Of a DNA stretch of 6,601 nucleotides, positions 1-6,343 are shown piece after piece. The notes beneath the pieces were generated by a model. The model was not told the origin of the DNA. It saw only the letters and a program-made list of their open reading frames with translations, and made no database searches. The position numbers were made by a program, and so were the translations under genes. How positions within the stretch are numbered: position 1 is the stretch's first letter; the number at the start of each line of letters is the position of its first letter. Source of the stretch: an uncultured Methanomicrobiales archaeon. GTDB lineage: Archaea > Thermoplasmatota > Thermoplasmata > Methanomassiliicoccales > Methanomethylophilaceae. The stretch spans positions 1 through 6,601 of the forward strand of contig CAMMYR010000039.1 in assembly GCA_946528255.1 (NCBI GenBank), given 5' to 3'.

Positions 1-790
1 CGATCAGCGTGATGGATGTCAGGAACTTCATGACGTTGGAAAGGGAGTGGTTCAGATCGGCTTCCACCAGCTGGCGGGTACCTTTGATGATCTGGCTGTA
101 CGTGGTGGTCATCTCCAGTGCCTGGTTCGTCTCGATGACCACGTCGTCCAGCAGGTCCCTGTCCTCCGGGGAGGATACGAAACGGGACTGCTTGCCCATC
201 CTGTCGATGATGCTGGCATTCACGCTCAGGCTGGTCTTGAAATAGACCAGGTTGGACTCAAGCTCGTGGAGCTCGAAGAGGTCCTCCCTGCGGGTGAACC
301 TGCGGATGGACTCTTCGATGGCCATCCTCTTGACCTCGATGTACTTGAGGTCGGCCTGATAGTTGATCGCGATGCGGAAGAGGATCTGCAGGACGAACCT
401 GGCCCTGTTGGCCACGTTGACGCTGTTGATGTTCCTGTTCCTGTTGGCGACGATGTTGCTGATCGCGAAGAGCTCCTGCAAGCAGACGGTGACGACCGCC
501 CTGTCGGTGACGGCTATGGAGATGGGATAGGTGGTGAACTCCTCCCTGCCGTTCCTCCACTCGCGGGTAGGCGCATCGATCAGGATCAGGGTGTAATCCG
601 GGGTGACCTCGACCCTGGAGCCCTCCTCGTCGTCCAGAGCAGCGGTTATGGCCTCGCGGTCGATGTCGAGGGCCTTGTGGACCAGCTCGATCTCCTCCGG
701 TGTGGGATTGGTGAGGTTGATCCAGACGTCGTCGGTGATCTGTTCGGTCTTGCTGGGCCTTCCGTCCTTCATCTCGTAGATGTCGATCAT
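1..790 (-). CDS. corA: CorA-like Mg2+/metal ion transporter, N-terminal part (cut by left edge)
   Basis: About 263 codons are present; the gene continues past the left edge. The visible part is the cytosolic domain of a CorA-family channel: an alpha/beta N-terminus, then long charged helices (RFTRREDLFELHELESNL around 187-204) and the stalk helix with SLSNVMKFLTSITLI at the edge, which in CorA leads straight into the first membrane helix and its GMN loop. Those lie outside the window, so selectivity cannot be read. The family moves Mg2+ (sometimes Co2+ or Ni2+) into the cell as a pentamer. The ATG at 790 follows a doubled SD-like GAGGT GAGGT GAG (805-793). The gene starts just after the M50 protease gene and is probably cotranscribed with it. 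All 21 Arg codons are AGG, CGC or CGT; none is CGA. Family call is confident; substrate is inferred. Confidence 0.88.
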   Translation of the reverse strand, partial: MIDIYEMKDGRPSKTEQITDDVWINLTNPTPEEIELVHKALDIDREAITAALDDEEGSRVEVTPDYTLILIDAPTREWRNGREEFTTYPISIAVTDRAVVTVCLQELFAISNIVANRNRNINSVNVANRARFVLQILFRIAINYQADLKYIEVKRMAIEESIRRFTRREDLFELHELESNLVYFKTSLSVNASIIDRMGKQSRFVSSPEDRDLLDDVVIETNQALEMTTTYSQIIKGTRQLVEADLNHSLSNVMKFLTSITLI

Positions 791-792
791 TT

Positions 793-805
793 CTCACCTC
801 ACCTC
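793..805 (-). promoter_or_regulatory. Doubled Shine-Dalgarno-like tract before corA
   Basis: GAGGT occurs twice in tandem followed by GAG, placing GGTGAG 7 nt and 2 nt before the corA ATG. The upstream copy has the usual spacing. It overlaps the proposed end of the M50 gene, as expected for translational coupling. Confidence 0.6.
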
Positions 806-806
806 G
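804..806 (-). other. Candidate CGA termination codon of the M50 protease gene
   Basis: This is the only in-frame CGA of the gene, placed directly after its last membrane helix. It abuts the corA ribosome binding site (CGA GGTGAGG), the same arrangement as the rps19e stop and the next gene's SD (TGA GGAGG). That it terminates translation is inferred. Confidence 0.6.
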
Positions 807-2393
807 TATCAATACAGCAATGAACACTAGCACGAACATAAATAATGCTATGGTGGACACAGAGCGAGATATGTTGTCGGCCATGGCCTGCCTGGTCTCC
901 TCGTCCTTGCCGACCTTCAGCTTCTCCAGCAGCCAGCTGACCCCGCCGCCGAAGATGAATCCTCCGTCGAATGGGTATGCGGGCAGGGCGTTGGTTATGC
1001 CCAGCAGGAGGTTGAGCCAGAACACCCAGTACAGGCACGCCACAAGCACCCAGAACACCTCGCCGCCGGGGGCGTCGTACCACCACTCCGTGGCGTTCGG
1101 TATGGGGTCCTTCCCGTTGAATGGTCCGGCGAGATAGGTGAAGATGCTCTGGACGTAGGATATGGGGGTGTCGGCGGCGTAGAACGGGTCCTTGGCGGAG
1201 TCCATGAGGATGTTAGGGGTGGAAAGCCTCAGGCCGGAATCGTCAACTCCGATGCCCACGAACCCTATGTCGCCCTTGGAGCCCAGCTCGAAGGTGTAGG
1301 TCTCCATCTTCAGGGGCACGCCGGACTTCATCACGGAAACGGTGGTGAGGGTGACCTGCTCGCCGGGGACGGTGTCTTCCATGGCGGTGTTGAAGTCGTC
1401 CCATGTGCCGATCATGTACGTATTGGTTGACGTCTCCAGGGAATACAGCAGCACTCCCTTCTCCAGACCGGCCTTGTGCGCCGGGCCGTCCTTGACCACG
1501 TTCTGGACGAACGCGCCCATCTGGACGCCGTCTATCCGCTTATTCTCGTCATGGTAGATGTATTCGATAGAATACGTGGAAGTTGGATCGAACCGATTAT
1601 CGGGATCGTTGACGAAGAACACGCTGACTCCCTCGGTGCGGGTTTCGAAGTTCACCGGGTCGCCGTCCTCATCGTATATGCCGACTATCAGGGCGGTGGT
1701 CGGGATGCCTGCGACGTACATGGGCGAATCCTCGTCCACTGCGAATACTCCCAGGTCGTCCCCGTACTGCGTGGATGTGGCGTTCAGCGAGAACACCATC
1801 AGGAATATGCACAGGAGCGCAACGAACGTGTTGACGGATATCCCCGCGGTGTACATGTCCATCTGGACGCGGCGGGGCTGCTTCCTCATCTCCTCCTCGT
1901 TGGGCTCCACGAAGGCGCCCACGGGCACCACGGCGTACAGCAGGCCGGTGGAATCGACCTTGGAGCCGTTGGCGCGGGTCTGTATCCCGTGGCCCATCTC
2001 GTGCACGACCATCGCGATGCACAGGGCCAGGACACCGTAGCTCAGGGGGAGCATGGGGTTGAACCCGGGGATCGCAAGCGCGTACCTTATGCCCACGGAT
2101 GACTGCCCCAGAGAAGTGGGCAGGTTTATGAGCGCCACGATGAGCATGTACAGCATCAGCAGCAGCAATACGAGGGCCACCACTTTGGAAATGAAGCCGA
2201 AGACCCTCCAGAAGCGCTGGTAGCGGGCGAGGCGGTCCATCGCCTTCATCCCCAGCTTCGTCTTGATCATTATAGCGGGGCCGTATTTGGACAGGTGGTA
2301 CTTCTCCGCCTGCTCCTTGTGGGTGTAGACCCAGAGCCAGAGCGGGACGTATATCACGCAAAGTGCAATCAGTACGATATACGCCGTATCCAT
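804..2393 (-). CDS. Site-2 protease family (M50) intramembrane metalloprotease with PDZ-like insert; ends at CGA
   Basis: A 529-residue membrane zinc protease if CGA (806-804) ends it. HEMGH at 131-135 sits in a membrane segment and supplies two zinc ligands and the catalytic Glu. NALPAYPFDGG at 468-478 is the second hallmark, with Asp476 the third ligand. AGISVN at 183-188 matches the motif after the active site. Residues about 215-390 are a soluble insert with PDZ-like stretches (GPAHKAGL at 303-310). Other membrane segments lie near 5-22, 70-90, 186-204, 447-467 and 512-529, so CGA falls right after the last helix. Family members cleave membrane-bound regulators; the substrate here is unknown. 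With a standard code the frame runs to a TGA at 258, adding about 180 Arg/His/Gln-rich residues that are the out-of-frame shadow of corA. Start: ATG with GGTGAG 3 nt upstream and its own TATA box. Confidence 0.85.
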
Positions 2394-2396
2394 GGC

Positions 2397-2430
2397 CTCA
2401 CCTGTCGCGACGATGCCTTCATCTTATAAA
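2397..2430 (-). promoter_or_regulatory. TATA-box promoter and SD of the M50 protease gene
   Basis: TTTATAAG at 2430-2423 is a good archaeal TATA box, 30 nt upstream of the ATG at 2393. It predicts transcription starting near 2398-2402. An SD-like GGTGAG lies at 2402-2397. The box follows the mptE stop codon directly, so the M50-corA pair can be transcribed separately from DUF373-mptE. No experimental start site is known. Confidence 0.55.
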
Positions 2431-2434
2431 GGGA

Positions 2435-3079
2435 TTATTCGCGCGCGCTCGACTGGGATGCGATGATCTCCCGCGCCCACTTCAGCTTCCTGGCCTTGTA
2501 TCCGTCGGGATCCGGCTTCCCGTAGGGCTCGTCGAAGTCGAAACCCCTCAGCCTGACCTGGGACCCGAAGTGCCTGGCCATGCAGACCGCCCTGTCCCCG
2601 TCGGTGAACCCGCCGAAGTCGTAGACGGTGTTCTCGGGCCTGCCCTGCGTGGAGAGCACCACCGGCCCCTTGAATGAAGCGGCGTGCATCCTGATCAGGT
2701 CCATGTTGTCCCCGTGGGCATGGATGACAGTGACCGTCCCTGATGCGCTGGCCTCCAGCTGCGGCCCTATATCCCCATCCAGGTCCGTGACCAGGATGTC
2801 GGGGGCTATCCCCAGGTCCAGGACCCTGCCGCAAGCGGATCCAGCTGCAATGACCGTGCCCTCTGTACCTTTCTCGGATATGTCGGATTCCATGCACCCG
2901 GCTGCCCCGATAACGGTGCTGACCGGGCCTATGAGCTCCCCCAGGTCGTCATCCGATATCAGATCGCAGTTCACCGTCGAGGCTTTCAACACGCGGACCG
3001 CCATGGCATCCGCGTCCGGGTCGAACCCGAAATCTTCGCAGATGCGCCTGTAGACCGGTTCCCAATCGGTATACCTCAT
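2435..3079 (-). CDS. mptE: 6-hydroxymethyl-7,8-dihydropterin pyrophosphokinase MptE (DUF115 family)
   Basis: 214 residues, close to the family norm, ending in TAA. The archaeal MptE/DUF115 signature is complete: VIAAGSA at 76-82, VTDLDGD at 97-103, HAHGDN at 120-125, TQGRPE at 144-149, GGFTDGDRA at 156-164, and the C-terminal KARKLKWA helix at 195-202. The enzyme transfers diphosphate from ATP to 6-hydroxymethyl-7,8-dihydropterin, a step of tetrahydromethanopterin (or archaeal folate) synthesis in the cytosol; it is unrelated in sequence to bacterial FolK. The ATG at 3079 is supported by GGAGG at 3090-3086 (6 nt spacing) and by the conserved N-terminus (DWEPVYRRICEDFGF). The DUF373 gene upstream overlaps its first codons, so the two are probably coupled. 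All 14 Arg codons are AGG, CGC or CGG. Confidence 0.93.
   Translation of the reverse strand: MRYTDWEPVYRRICEDFGFDPDADAMAVRVLKASTVNCDLISDDDLGELIGPVSTVIGAAGCMESDISEKGTEGTVIAAGSACGRVLDLGIAPDILVTDLDGDIGPQLEASASGTVTVIHAHGDNMDLIRMHAASFKGPVVLSTQGRPENTVYDFGGFTDGDRAVCMARHFGSQVRLRGFDFDEPYGKPDPDGYKARKLKWAREIIASQSSARE
3066..3068 (-). other. Candidate CGA termination codon of the DUF373 gene
   Basis: This is the first and only in-frame CGA before the standard-code stop at 2949 is approached by shadow sequence. It is formed by the last base of mptE codon 4 (ACC, Thr) and the first two of codon 5 (GAT). Changing it to TGA would be silent in mptE (ACT), so MptE does not force CGA here. Termination is inferred. 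Confidence 0.55.
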
Positions 3080-4193
3080 CCGCCGCCTCCGGCTGGTTGA
3101 CCGACCTGAGGCGGTTGGTGTAGAACGCTATGACGATGGATGATACCACTCCGGCGACGATCTCCACGATGGCCATCAGGAGGGATTCGACGTCGTACAT
3201 GTAGTACATGATGATGTCCAGGATACCGGATGCGACCAGCGAGATGGCCGCCAGGTTCAGGAACGAGATTATGGCCTTCCAGCTGATGGTCTTCTTGGTA
3301 CCGTAATCCTGGATGACAGCCCCGAGTATGTAGACGAAAAGGGCTATGGTGGTGGGCCATACCATACCGGACAGGACGTAGAGGACCTGGTGGAACAGCG
3401 ACAGGGAGTACATGCTATCCACGTCGAAGAACATGACCAGCATGCAGACGAAGAACAGGGTTATCGCGATAATGGTGAAAATGAATTTGATGCTCTGAGT
3501 GACCATGATGTCCTTAACGGATACCGAGAAATTCGTCATCCTGGTGCGCGTATCGTACGAGTACAGGATGATTACCACGCCTATTGCGAACACGGTGAAC
3601 GCCCCTGTCAGGCTGGCGTAAGCGCGGGGCTCCCCTCCCTCGGACCAGGCGATGTACAGGCCTGGGATCAGGAATATCAGGGCTATGACGGTCATGAGCG
3701 CACCCAGCGGAAGCAGGAACCTCTTCCTCTTCGCGGGGTCGGCCAGCATCCTGGTGAGGATGTAGAATGTACCTTCGACTCCGGGGGCCTGCTTGACGTA
3801 GACCTTGCGGACGGAGTCCACATGTGCCCTGGAGGAGATGATCGGGTAGATGTACTCGTCCTCCGCCCCGTCTCCGACCAGGACTATGCTGTCTGGTTCG
3901 ACCGATGACAGGACCTCCTCCAGCTGCGTGGCGAGGGCCAGATCGGATTTGTATCCGACCTTCTCGTTCCCGCATATCAGGGCGCATTCCGCATCCTGGC
4001 CGTCCTCCTGGAGCTCCAGGCAGGTGCTGATCGCGGCATACAACGCATTGAGATCGGAGTCCTCCGGGTCGGCGATGCCCAGGGCTGTCGCAGCCTCGGT
4101 GCATCCCTGGACGCCGATAACGGGGGTGCTGACCTTGCCTTTGACGCCGAAGTCATCATCCCTGTCCACGACCAGAACCAGAGTCCTCTTCAT
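3066..4193 (-). CDS. DUF373 family multi-pass membrane protein; ends at CGA
   Basis: 375 residues if CGA (3068-3066) ends it. The N-terminal soluble domain carries DUF373 hallmarks: LVLVVDRDDDFG at 5-16, VGDGAEDEYIYPIISSR at 106-122, and VKQAPGVEGTFYILTR at 133-148. About six membrane helices follow, near 160-181, 193-212, 234-256, 272-294, 308-330 and 338-358. The function of this archaeal family is not established. The ATG at 4193 has no SD, but a TATA box ends 23 nt upstream, so the mRNA is probably leaderless. No canonical stop occurs until a TGA at 2949, inside mptE; the 39 extra residues would be out-of-frame mptE sequence. The only CGA of the frame lies 11 nt inside mptE, giving a 14-nt overlap. 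The 12 sense Arg codons are AGG or CGC. Alternative end: a one-base indel would reach a TGA overlapping the mptE ATG. Confidence 0.83.
3086..3090 (-). promoter_or_regulatory. Shine-Dalgarno of mptE
   Basis: GGAGG lies 6 nt before the mptE ATG, within the end of the DUF373 gene. It fixes the mptE start and so the 14-nt overlap. Confidence 0.7.
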
Positions 4194-4279
4194 GACCGTA
4201 TAATCGCTGGAGTCCGTATATAAGTGTCGCCCCGTTTTTTCCGATAAGGCTTATTTCCAACCCGCGCCTACCCCGTGGC
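4194..4279. promoter_or_regulatory. Divergent promoter region between the DUF373 and MBL hydrolase genes
   Basis: This 86-nt gap serves two divergent genes, neither with an SD. On the minus strand CTTATATAC (4224-4216) ends 23 nt before the DUF373 ATG. On the plus strand CTTATTT (4250-4256) ends about 24 nt before the MBL ATG. These distances put transcription starts at or next to the start codons, so both mRNAs are predicted leaderless. The 11-bp palindrome ATAAG-G-CTTAT (4244-4254) overlaps the plus-strand TATA element and could be a regulator site or just TATA symmetry. Confidence 0.6.
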
Positions 4280-4921
4280 ATGCGGATCAGGTGGCACGGC
4301 CATTCATGCTTCGAATTCGAGGACTCCCGGGCTAGGGTGGTCATCGACCCCCACGACGGCAAGTCCATCGGCATCAGGCCGCCCTCCGTCACCGCCGACA
4401 TCGTGCTCATGACGCACGACCATTACGACCACAACGTGAGCCGCATCGTCCAGGGCGCCCACCAGGATTTCATGGCGACCAGGGGCGGATTCACCGCCAA
4501 GGGCATCTCCTTCGAGGGCTTCGGGACCTTCCATGACGAGGAGGGCGGGGCCGCCAGGGGCCAGGACACCATGTACATGTTCGAGATGGACGGCATGACG
4601 GTCTGCCACTGCGGGGACCTCGGATGCGTCCCCTCGCAGGACATAATCGACAGGATCCGCAACGTGGATTTCCTCTTCGTGCCCGTGGGCGAGGTCTTCA
4701 CACTTTCCATGCCCCGGGTCAAGGAGCTCATAGAGAAGGTGAACCCCAATGTGGTCGTCCCCATGCATTACAGGGTCGGCGGGCTGACCATACCCGTCGG
4801 GAGCTTAGACGGATTCCTGTCCATAATCCCCGAGGATGCCGTGGATTACATCGGCAACGAGGTCGACGTATCACGCGACGACATAGGGGACAGCAAGGAA
4901 TGCTGGATCTTCGAGAGGCGA
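4280..4921 (+). CDS. MBL-fold metal-dependent hydrolase (UPF0173/UlaG-like); ends at CGA
   Basis: 213 residues if CGA (4919-4921) ends it, within the usual size for short single-domain metallo-beta-lactamase-fold hydrolases. HGHSCF at 6-11 is the typical start. THDHYDHN at 45-52 is the HxHxDH metal site; His110 with GD at 112-113 and His163 (PMHY) supply further ligands. IDPH at 22-25 also fits the UPF0173/Lactamase_B_3 group. The substrate cannot be read; the family hydrolyses diverse esters and lactones in the cytosol. The start is the ATG 24 nt after a TATA-like element, with no SD, so probably leaderless. No canonical stop occurs until a TGA at 5054-5056; the 45 extra residues would be antisense to aif6. 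I scanned every CGA trinucleotide in the gene: only the one at 4919 is in frame. Its 14 sense Arg codons are AGG, CGC or CGG. Confidence 0.87.
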
Positions 4922-4925
4922 TTCG
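4919..4925. other. Tail-to-tail candidate CGA stops of the MBL hydrolase and aIF6 genes (CGA-T-TCG)
   Basis: The palindrome CGATTCG holds an in-frame CGA for the plus-strand MBL gene (4919-4921) and an in-frame CGA for the minus-strand aif6 gene (4925-4923), separated by one base. Each is the first CGA of its gene and lies at the expected protein end. With a standard code the two genes would overlap by about 330 nt; with CGA as stop they abut. Confidence 0.65.
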
Positions 4926-5582
4926 GTAGAGAGCCAAACCTTCTTCGACCCTCCCCATCTCTATGGGGGTGGTCTCGTCGCCCAGGATCGCGCCCTTTGA
5001 ATTGGCGAGGACTCCGGCGCCGACCATCCTGGACCCGTGGTTCACGGTGGTCCTGACCACATCCACCTTCAGGACATCCTTCAGGAGCGCGACGTCCTCA
5101 TCGGAGGCGCCCACATGGCAGATGCATCCCTTGTTGGTGGCGCAGCACACGGATCCCACGGTGGCGCATCCGGCGATGTCGGCCTTGACGCATTCCACGC
5201 CCAGGGCATCGGCGATGGCATCCACGGCGGGCTTCTCGTAATAAGTGCTGACGACCGCTCCCTTGTCGTTGCAGAGGATGTTGTTCCCCGCGGCGTTGAG
5301 GGGGTCGTCCAGGGCGGCGCACGGGAGGCACTCCGATACGAGGGAAATCTCCCTCGGGTCGGCGAGTCCCGATACGACCGCCCCGTTGGAATTTAAGGCG
5401 ATGAGGGAGCCGATCACGAACGAACCGGCCACGGTCATCGTTTTGACATCGACCTCCAGGCCGCGCTCCAGGGAGTTCACGAACTCCTCGGAGACGTCGG
5501 AGGCGACGAACGCCACGCTCTCGTTGACCGCTGCGAACACCCCGATGTTGGGGTTACCTGCGTAACGGGCGCGGCGCATCAT
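4923..5582 (-). CDS. eif6: Archaeal translation initiation factor 6 (aIF6); ends at CGA
   Basis: 219 residues if CGA (4925-4923) ends it, a normal length for aIF6. The protein binds the large ribosomal subunit and blocks joining with the small one. Pentein-fold repeats are recognisable: GNPNIGVFA at 9-17, the GNNILCNDKGAVVS stretch at 99-112, ATNKG at 148-152, and GVLANSKGAILGDETTPIE at 190-208, ending in RVEEGLAL as the family does. The frame otherwise runs to a stop at 4728, adding about 65 residues antisense to the MBL gene. Two ATGs occur in tandem (5582, 5579); the first lies 7 nt after GGAG and is chosen. It is the last gene of the rps19e operon, 4 nt after the rpl31e stop. Oddity: nine cysteines, including ECLPC (84-88) and a VCCATNKGCIC stretch (145-155). 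Its 8 Arg codons are AGG, CGC or CGT. Confidence 0.9.
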
Positions 5583-5855: not shown

Positions 5856-6011
5856 TCACTCCTTGAGCTTGCTCATGCGCCACGACCTTCTCTTGGGGTG
5901 GCGGAGGAACTGCCTGTTAGTCCTGATCATGACCCAAGCGGGAACACGGCGGTTCTGCTTGGTCTTCTTGTTGAGCCTGGTCTTCATTGCCGGGGCCTTT
6001 GTGCTTGACAT
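5856..6011 (-). CDS. rpl39e: Large ribosomal subunit protein eL39
   Basis: A 51-residue, strongly basic protein ending in [23 protein letters not shown], then [20 protein letters not shown] and [11 protein letters not shown]. This matches eL39 over its whole length, including the nearly invariant NRRVPAWV...T core. eL39 lines the nascent-peptide exit tunnel in archaea and eukaryotes, where bacteria have none. The ATG at 6011 follows GAGGAG by 6 nt. The gene lies 2 nt after the PDCD5-like gene stop, and its last codons (AAG GAG TGA) form the SD of rpl31e. Confidence 0.96.
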
Positions 6012-6013
6012 GA

Positions 6014-6343
6014 TTATCTCCTCTGTATCGTGATCTCCCTCTTCTGAGGGACGATCTGTGCAAGGATGTTCTTCAGCATGTTGTCGTCGATCATTCCCTG
6101 GAGCCTTCCGCTCTGGGCCAGCTGTATCAGCTGCATCTCGACGCTGTCCGCGAGCTGGGGGTTCGCCAGCTTGATGTTGGCGAGCCTGTCGCGAGCCTCA
6201 GGTGTGAGAATCTGCCTGAGGACCGACTGCTTCTGGGCTTCGAACTGCTTGGCCTGCTCCTCCTGTGCAGCCTGGTTCTGAGCCTGCTGCTGGAGCTCCG
6301 CCATCCTCTTTTGCCTCAGTGCCGCCAATTCCGGATCGTCCAT
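6014..6343 (-). CDS. PDCD5-family DNA-binding protein
   Basis: 109 residues ending in TAA. The acidic start ([20 protein letters not shown]), a Gln/Ala/Glu-rich helix to about residue 35, and the core [42 protein letters not shown] (about 40-81) are the signature of the PDCD5/TFAR19 family, ending in a basic tail (KREITIQRR). Archaeal members are small three-helix-bundle proteins described as DNA-binding; their cellular role is poorly defined. The position between rps19e and rpl39e is the conserved archaeal arrangement. The ATG at 6343 follows GGAGG by 7 nt. The end reads AGG AGA TAA, so its last codons form the SD for rpl39e. Confidence 0.94.

Follow-up and report, generated by a model that had tools for sequence, protein, structure and literature searches.

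On contig CAMMYR010000039.1 we analysed a stretch of 6,601 nt, called the window throughout, in which the arginine codon CGA stands at the ends of four genes. That CGA acts as a stop in this lineage we regard as close to certain. The explanation that best accounts for the observations as a whole, to which we would give a probability of roughly 0.75, is that CGA would serve as a fourth stop codon, recognised by aRF1, the sole archaeal release factor. CGA occurs where relatives have TGA, is nearly absent inside genes, and has no cognate tRNA in the genome of the closest locus that we compared (G001, below). From these patterns in the DNA we infer termination at CGA, together with the readthrough, the regulation and the order of events that are proposed further on.

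The window holds ten genes, named here by their Pfam matches; the first four listed are those that end in CGA:

804..2393, minus strand: Peptidase_M50 (M50 protease) gene, final codon CGA at 804-806
3066..4193, minus strand: DUF373 gene, final codon CGA at 3066-3068; overlaps the beginning of the MptE-like gene
4280..4921, plus strand: Lactamase_B_3 (beta-lactamase-fold, metallo-beta-lactamase (MBL) hydrolase) gene, final codon CGA at 4919-4921
4923..5579, minus strand: aIF6 gene (Pfam eIF-6), final codon CGA at 4923-4925, convergent with the hydrolase gene
2..790, minus strand: CorA-like gene (Pfam CorA), extending beyond the window, no in-frame CGA
2435..3079, minus strand: MptE-like gene, stop TAA
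5587..5850, minus strand: ribosomal protein L31e gene, stop TGA
5856..6011, minus strand: ribosomal protein L39e gene (Pfam L39), stop TGA
6014..6343, minus strand: dsDNA_bind (PDCD5-like) gene, stop TAA
6356..6601, minus strand: ribosomal protein S19e gene, incomplete at the window edge, stop TGA

Where their family proteins end, the frames of the M50 protease, DUF373, hydrolase and aIF6 genes have no standard stop and carry CGA instead; beyond it they stay open, with tails that are shadows of neighbouring genes. An earlier, sequence-only reading of this DNA had placed the four CGA codons at these coordinates and strands, which proved exact on recheck. It had also counted about 115 arginine codons in roughly 2,140 codons of the ten genes, with no further in-frame CGA, and had TGA and TAA still ending five genes. 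Our recount agrees: 2,140 codons, 115 of them for arginine (AGG 67, CGC 35, CGG 6, CGT 4, AGA 3), no in-frame CGA inside the ten genes, and standard stops at five ends (TGA at three, TAA at two). Its claim that the four CGA ends exceed chance also stands, the binomial probability of at least four CGA among nine gene ends being about 1e-12 at the in-frame CGA rate of the comparator genome G056 (27/87,947, a generous count).

Eighty loci of our genome collection were compared with the window. The closest is L001 (SUTA01000002.1, metagenome-assembled genome (MAG) Thermoplasmata archaeon SIG8), whose aIF6 is 89% identical to that of the window and whose genome is G001; the family of G001, with 102 genomes, is meant by 'the family' below, and the nearer loci bear the record titles Methanomethylophilaceae or Methanomassiliicoccaceae. 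In L001 the orthologues of the DUF373, hydrolase and aIF6 genes end in CGA, that of DUF373 at offset 0, and the M50 orthologue ends in TGA at the same place as the window CGA. The codon after the conserved end of aIF6, printed for 44 of the 80 loci, is TGA in 38, TAA in 4, and CGA only in L001; at one of the 44, L014, the alignment is short and the frame continues to a stop.

Across G001, gene ends were placed by aligning open reading frames of G056 (794,212 bases sampled) to 708,567 bases of G001, taken as 41 stretches out of about 1.9 Mb, the 1,961 raw matches being reduced to 331 by overlap removal and to 302 by dropping 29 shadow-like comparator frames. The 221 ends so placed comprise 118 TGA, 89 CGA, 11 TAA, 2 TAG and one without any of these. 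At most three codons from the G056 end lie 112 TGA, 79 CGA, 11 TAA and 2 TAG, and exactly at that end 80, 54, 7 and 2, respectively. Before the shadow filter, CGA made up 56 of 240 exact-end codons and ten other tabulated codons 0 to 6 each; CAA was found at none of the 240. CGA at 89 of 221 ends is thus far above the other codons. The 79 CGA ends correspond in G056 to TGA in 74 cases and to TAA in 5. An A directly precedes the stop at 33 of the 112 TGA ends, as in ATGA overlaps, versus 3 of the 79 CGA ends (Fisher p 3e-6), so that TGA has been retained in G001 where A precedes.

Other members of the family also end genes with CGA. Apart from L001 and the window, CGA stands exactly at the end in 14 of 501 ends placed in family loci (a few of which overlap in genome), next to AGA at 2, GGA at 3, TGG at 5 and TCA at 1. 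Six of the 14 lie in L051 and L058, whose genomes are G022 and G068. CGA occupies 15 of 36 placed ends in G022 (8 exact) and 9 of 35 in G068 (7 exact), and these counts, with those of G001, support the earlier claim that CGA is an extra stop. In an aIF6 tree of 39 rows the window pairs with L001 as its sister (support 100), with L058 and L051 placed elsewhere; a single clade of all four was rejected (p-AU, the approximately unbiased test, 0.012; a quickly built tree from a single short protein). CGA ends have likely spread repeatedly, to judge from this distribution. The alternative that CGA is a plain arginine codon and the genes simply run on, or that the four window sites are sequencing or assembly errors, we find scarcely credible. 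It can appeal to the frames that are open beyond the CGAs and to a stop loss with a two-residue tail in L007; against it, the same ends are seen in separate assemblies (the window, SUTA01000002.1, G022 and G068), the window tails are shadows of neighbours, and CGA at the ends of G001 genes is far more frequent than other codons.

Inside genes CGA is very rare. With a coding-score filter applied on both sides, no internal CGA was found among 84,792 codons of G001, which bears out the earlier expectation that CGA is confined to gene ends there, a single case in L258, taken up below, being ambiguous. Unfiltered counts of internal CGA in G001 (86 and 189 in two counts) were set aside as mostly antisense or out-of-frame shadows, and of 18 CGAs that remained inside the 302 matches, 17 proved, when read by eye, either to precede the true start or to lie at the end of the gene. 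CGA accounts for 23 of 5,417 arginine codons in 62 family loci versus 61 of 1,003 in 16 outgroup loci (L059, L061-L075); L001-L025 contribute 1 in 2,366, and the remaining 22 CGAs of the family come from L027 and the loci after it. The single filtered internal CGA of G054 (1/57,344 codons) and that of G068 (1/10,679) both lie in the aRF1 gene. G056 likewise has 1 in 56,552, at the same aRF1 site as G054, and 2 in 83,443 in a second match set, where that site accounts for one of the two. L044, L045, L047, L048 and L054 retain two to five sense CGAs each, and in these loci CGA is probably still read mainly as arginine.

The tRNA genes of G001 suggest that CGA has lost its decoder. ARAGORN was used to read each of the 43 tRNA matches that Rfam gave in G001; the arginine anticodons are GCG, CCG, TCT and CCT, and tRNA-Arg(UCG), anticodon TCG, was not found among the 43. 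Every anticodon common to G056 and G054 is present in G001 except this one. The tRNA order Arg(GCG), Thr(GGT), Arg(TCG) is common to G064, G054 and G052, and the two protein genes on either side of Arg(TCG) in G064 are immediate neighbours mid-contig in G001, separated by 373 bases that contain no tRNA. Searches of that site for a relic gave short chance-level pieces with BLAST and nothing with Rfam. G022 and G068, which have CGA-ended genes, each possess the tRNA-Arg(TCG) gene. Loss of tRNA-Arg(UCG), proposed by the sequence-only reading as part of the mechanism, is therefore seen in G001, with the GCG and CCG anticodons present as foreseen, but is not a requirement, since G022 and G068 keep the tRNA. 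Of the refuting results that the same reading had named, two concern genome sequence, namely many in-frame CGAs at conserved positions and a tRNA-Arg(UCG) gene; neither turned up in G001. An older loss in G052, G054 and G064 was considered and dropped when ARAGORN found diverged copies; a pattern search for the tRNA across the 102 genomes misses the G052 copy and also matches tRNA-Pro(CGG), and serves as a hint only.

The aRF1 genes of the family carry an early CGA of their own. An in-frame CGA lies in the region of the N-terminal domain (N-domain) in 38 of 42 family genes and in all 6 fetched later (44/48). Counted from the NIKS motif, the 38 have it at +20 in 25 genes (all 24 from G051-G080, plus G036), at -33 in 11 and at -47 in 2; the later six have it at -33, -31 or +20. 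Among the 42, no N-domain CGA was found in G001, G002, G045 or G081, the gene of G001 having CGC at the +20 site in a genome without tRNA-Arg(UCG), and the genes of G036, G102, G003 and G008 contain more than one CGA. At +20 the context is [GT]CT CGA CTN in 24 of 25 genes, which were chosen for having CGA there, and other arginine columns of the same genes use two to four codons. The CGA aligns to a conserved arginine, and no programmed frameshift was found at it, the protein frame continuing in register. For a sense-to-sense change of CGA we likewise found nothing, given this alignment to arginine in the relatives and the absence of filtered internal CGA in G001.

We somewhat favour an autoregulatory role for the CGA in aRF1, which is suggested by its place and conservation in these genes. 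In bacteria, RF2 (prfB) is autoregulated, and class-I release-factor genes of giant viruses are recoded, according to the part of the source used here (PMC3521657). The likeness would lie in a stop-like codon inside a release-factor gene with a proposed feedback, and the C that follows CGA in the +20 group recalls the C context described there; unlike those cases, which involve UGA, UAG or UAA with frameshift or readthrough, the codon here is an in-frame CGA decoded as arginine with no shift. Alternatively, CGA might end genes elsewhere and act within aRF1 only by being slow to decode, setting how much is expressed without any termination. A tRNA-Arg(UCG) with almost no other codon to read may well be scarce, as this would need; we nevertheless think it unlikely, because the codon lies in the gene for the same release factor that is proposed to recognise it, as in bacterial RF2 (PMC3521657, the same part), and because three different early positions are used across genomes.

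These observations also bear on C-to-U editing, which the sequence-only reading had offered as one possible mechanism, with CGA turned into UGA at gene ends under a standard code. A single edit per site would suffice, and 74 of the 79 CGA ends do match TGA in relatives. The window genes, however, contain 153 out-of-frame CGAs on the same strands (in the other two frames), so that editing would need some means of sensing the reading frame; moreover, editing needs neither the near-absence of sense CGA nor the lost cognate tRNA, and the CGA of the relatives' aRF1 genes aligns to arginine. Editing therefore now appears much less likely, and we consider it very improbable.

Only two proteins with an eRF1_1 domain occur in G001, aPelota being present, and hence a second release factor of this type is absent. 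In G001 the gene for aRF1 (L112) itself ends in CGA, the A of which is also the first base of the following gene's ATG (CGATG); that following gene looks like one for arginyl-tRNA synthetase. The motifs to which the sequence-only reading had pointed (NIKS, GTS and YxCxxxF) are intact in G001 aRF1, as NIKS, GTE and YRCDxxF; the residue that is likely relevant is instead the match of Arg68 in human eRF1, opposite which G001 has Met64; in the archaeal chains 4af1 and 3agk the position is Arg. At this position 47 of 48 family aRF1 genes encode Met or Leu, the exception being G081, with Arg and no N-domain CGA, and 14 outgroup genomes have Arg (10), Lys (3) or Gln (1). The protein list P0121-P0240 shows Met in 118, Leu in 1 and one unread, and P0241-P0352 shows Met in 64, Arg in 30, Lys in 10, Leu in 7 and one unread. 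In the eRF1 simulations, as given in the part of PMC5681627 on which we draw, CAA, CAG and CGA are rejected by about 6 kcal/mol, largely via Lys63, and the penalty for a first-base C falls to 1-2 kcal/mol in the R68A variant; that computation predicts acceptance of a first-base C once Arg68 is lost. The residue-68 change thus marks the group in which CGA is depleted, without being sufficient for CGA as a common stop. That aRF1 itself reads CGA we consider quite probable.

Other changes in G001 aRF1, as seen against 21 family genes (D43E, K65N, N66H and L285F), were rejected as the cause: P0123 lacks K65N and N66H, and G022 and G068 carry the common residues at these places. P0123 is 89% identical, and its tail hints that the gene ends in CGA. 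In G068 (L453), NIRS replaces NIKS, the sole exception among 42 family genes; according to the same part of PMC5681627, Lys63Arg alone among changes at this position preserves activity.

A further possibility is that CGA is simply unassigned for want of a tRNA, so that ribosomes stall until aPelota and the factors that work with it rescue them, with aRF1 not reading the codon. Loss of tRNA-Arg(UCG) and the presence of aPelota in G001 both fit. We nevertheless think it improbable: G022 and G068 end genes with CGA yet keep the tRNA, rescue would have to be a normal route of termination at about 40% of ends, and the early CGA in family aRF1 genes would go unexplained, as would the change at residue 68.

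If CGA is instead a stop read by aRF1, the following course of events can be proposed. Because it has Met or Leu where eRF1 has Arg68, which holds the NIKS loop steady, the aRF1 of the family would tolerate C as the first base of a stop codon. CGA would then be misread by aRF1 and purged from coding sequences, with one early CGA kept in the aRF1 gene and tRNA-Arg(UCG) retained to read it. When abundant, aRF1 would stop its own synthesis at this early CGA; when scarce, it would leave the codon to the tRNA, which would read through. At gene ends TGA would drift to CGA where tolerated. CGA may have both meanings in G022 and G068, and in the lineage of G001, and probably of the window, the tRNA and the early aRF1 site would have been lost, making CGA a plain stop; the species of the window probably resembles G001 in both losses. 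In its joint form, with an aRF1 relaxed at the first U throughout the family, a CGA of two meanings (stop at the ends of genes in several lineages, and arginine at the conserved aRF1 site, which would act as a thermostat), and a dedicated fourth stop in the lineage of the window and G001, we put this reading only a little above even.

Several observations weigh against that reading or parts of it. In G001, neither the base after the stop nor the distance to the next standard stop differs clearly between CGA and TGA ends. L258 of G001 has an in-frame CGA (0-based 10725) between two domains, which could be a gene end or internal; upstream is a membrane-protein frame, and the downstream domain is without a clear start codon. 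The coding filter used for internal CGA is not loss-free, having missed the aRF1 CGA of G022. As for residue 68, the simulation (PMC5681627, in the part cited) concerns human eRF1 with Ala, unlike the natural Met or Leu here. G054 and G056 have Met or Leu at this position but no CGA at exact ends (0/139 and 0/128, with 3 and 4 nearby), which is why the change cannot be sufficient. L047 (G008, AT-rich), with the most sense CGA (5 of 104 arginine codons), and L048 (G036), with 3 of 87, have Met or Leu there too. G002 and G045 have Met68 but no N-domain CGA, the CGAs of G045 being at 121 and 211. The base after the aRF1 CGA is C in 24 of 25 genes at +20 but G in ten tabulated genes at -33. Finally, since G022 and G068 keep the tRNA, CGA must be ambiguous there.

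To our knowledge, sense-to-stop changes are known only from organelles, the code changes of cellular genomes being stop-to-sense or sense-to-sense. In vertebrate mitochondria, AGA and AGG, arginine codons without a cognate tRNA, end genes; that is an organelle code, and the codons are AGR rather than CGN. For green-algal mitochondria, the part of PMC6821328 used here reports UCA and UCG reassigned from sense to stop, which is similar in that a sense codon gone from genes became a stop, with a release-factor change proposed as the cause, and different in that the code is an organelle's and the factor a bacterial-type mtRF1a; here we have a cellular archaeal genome, CGA, and an eRF1-type factor. 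In bacteria the arginine codons AGG, CGA and CGG have been reassigned to other amino acids (PMC8629427, in part), where rare arginine codons, CGA among them, likewise changed meaning after becoming rare, with tRNA changes, but where the new meaning is an amino acid. The archaeal table in that part of the same source contains no sense codon inferred to mean another amino acid, and a method that infers amino acids would presumably not report a stop. We found no report of a CGA stop in archaea, or of in-frame CGA in aRF1, in the open-access literature, a scope that leaves subscription papers and preprints mostly outside.

If the proposed reading is true, a sense-to-stop change in a cellular genome and an archaeal release factor that regulates itself would, as far as we know, both be firsts. 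Its likely steps would stand side by side in living relatives, with CGA nearly gone, used both ways, or deprived of its tRNA. Arg68 (eRF1 numbering) would be a testable single-residue cause, and the in-frame CGA opens feedback control of archaeal termination to direct test. Wherever CGA is a stop, gene models built on the standard code would overrun in these organisms.

Some minor observations concern further loci. The hydrolase gene also ends in CGA in L010, L023, L051, L058 and L155, in some with a short tail, and further lineages among these may use CGA as an end. Some rows with CGA (for example L015, L020 and L042) proved to be shadows or arginine codons just before a stop, and these loci are not put forward as users of CGA. 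L021 and L023 are two distinct aIF6 loci under one MAG name (RGIG6908), which may mix two organisms. At the protein level, the metagenome aIF6 proteins P0001, P0002, P0004, P0048 and P0052 continue beyond the conserved end via arginine, and P0003 has no such extension; P0048 and P0052, 66-67% identical, point to probable CGA ends in other lineages. Lastly, L007 encodes a protein 100% identical to one of G056 and has CGA, one codon and a stop (0-based 8197) where G056 has TGA, which is a recent stop change.

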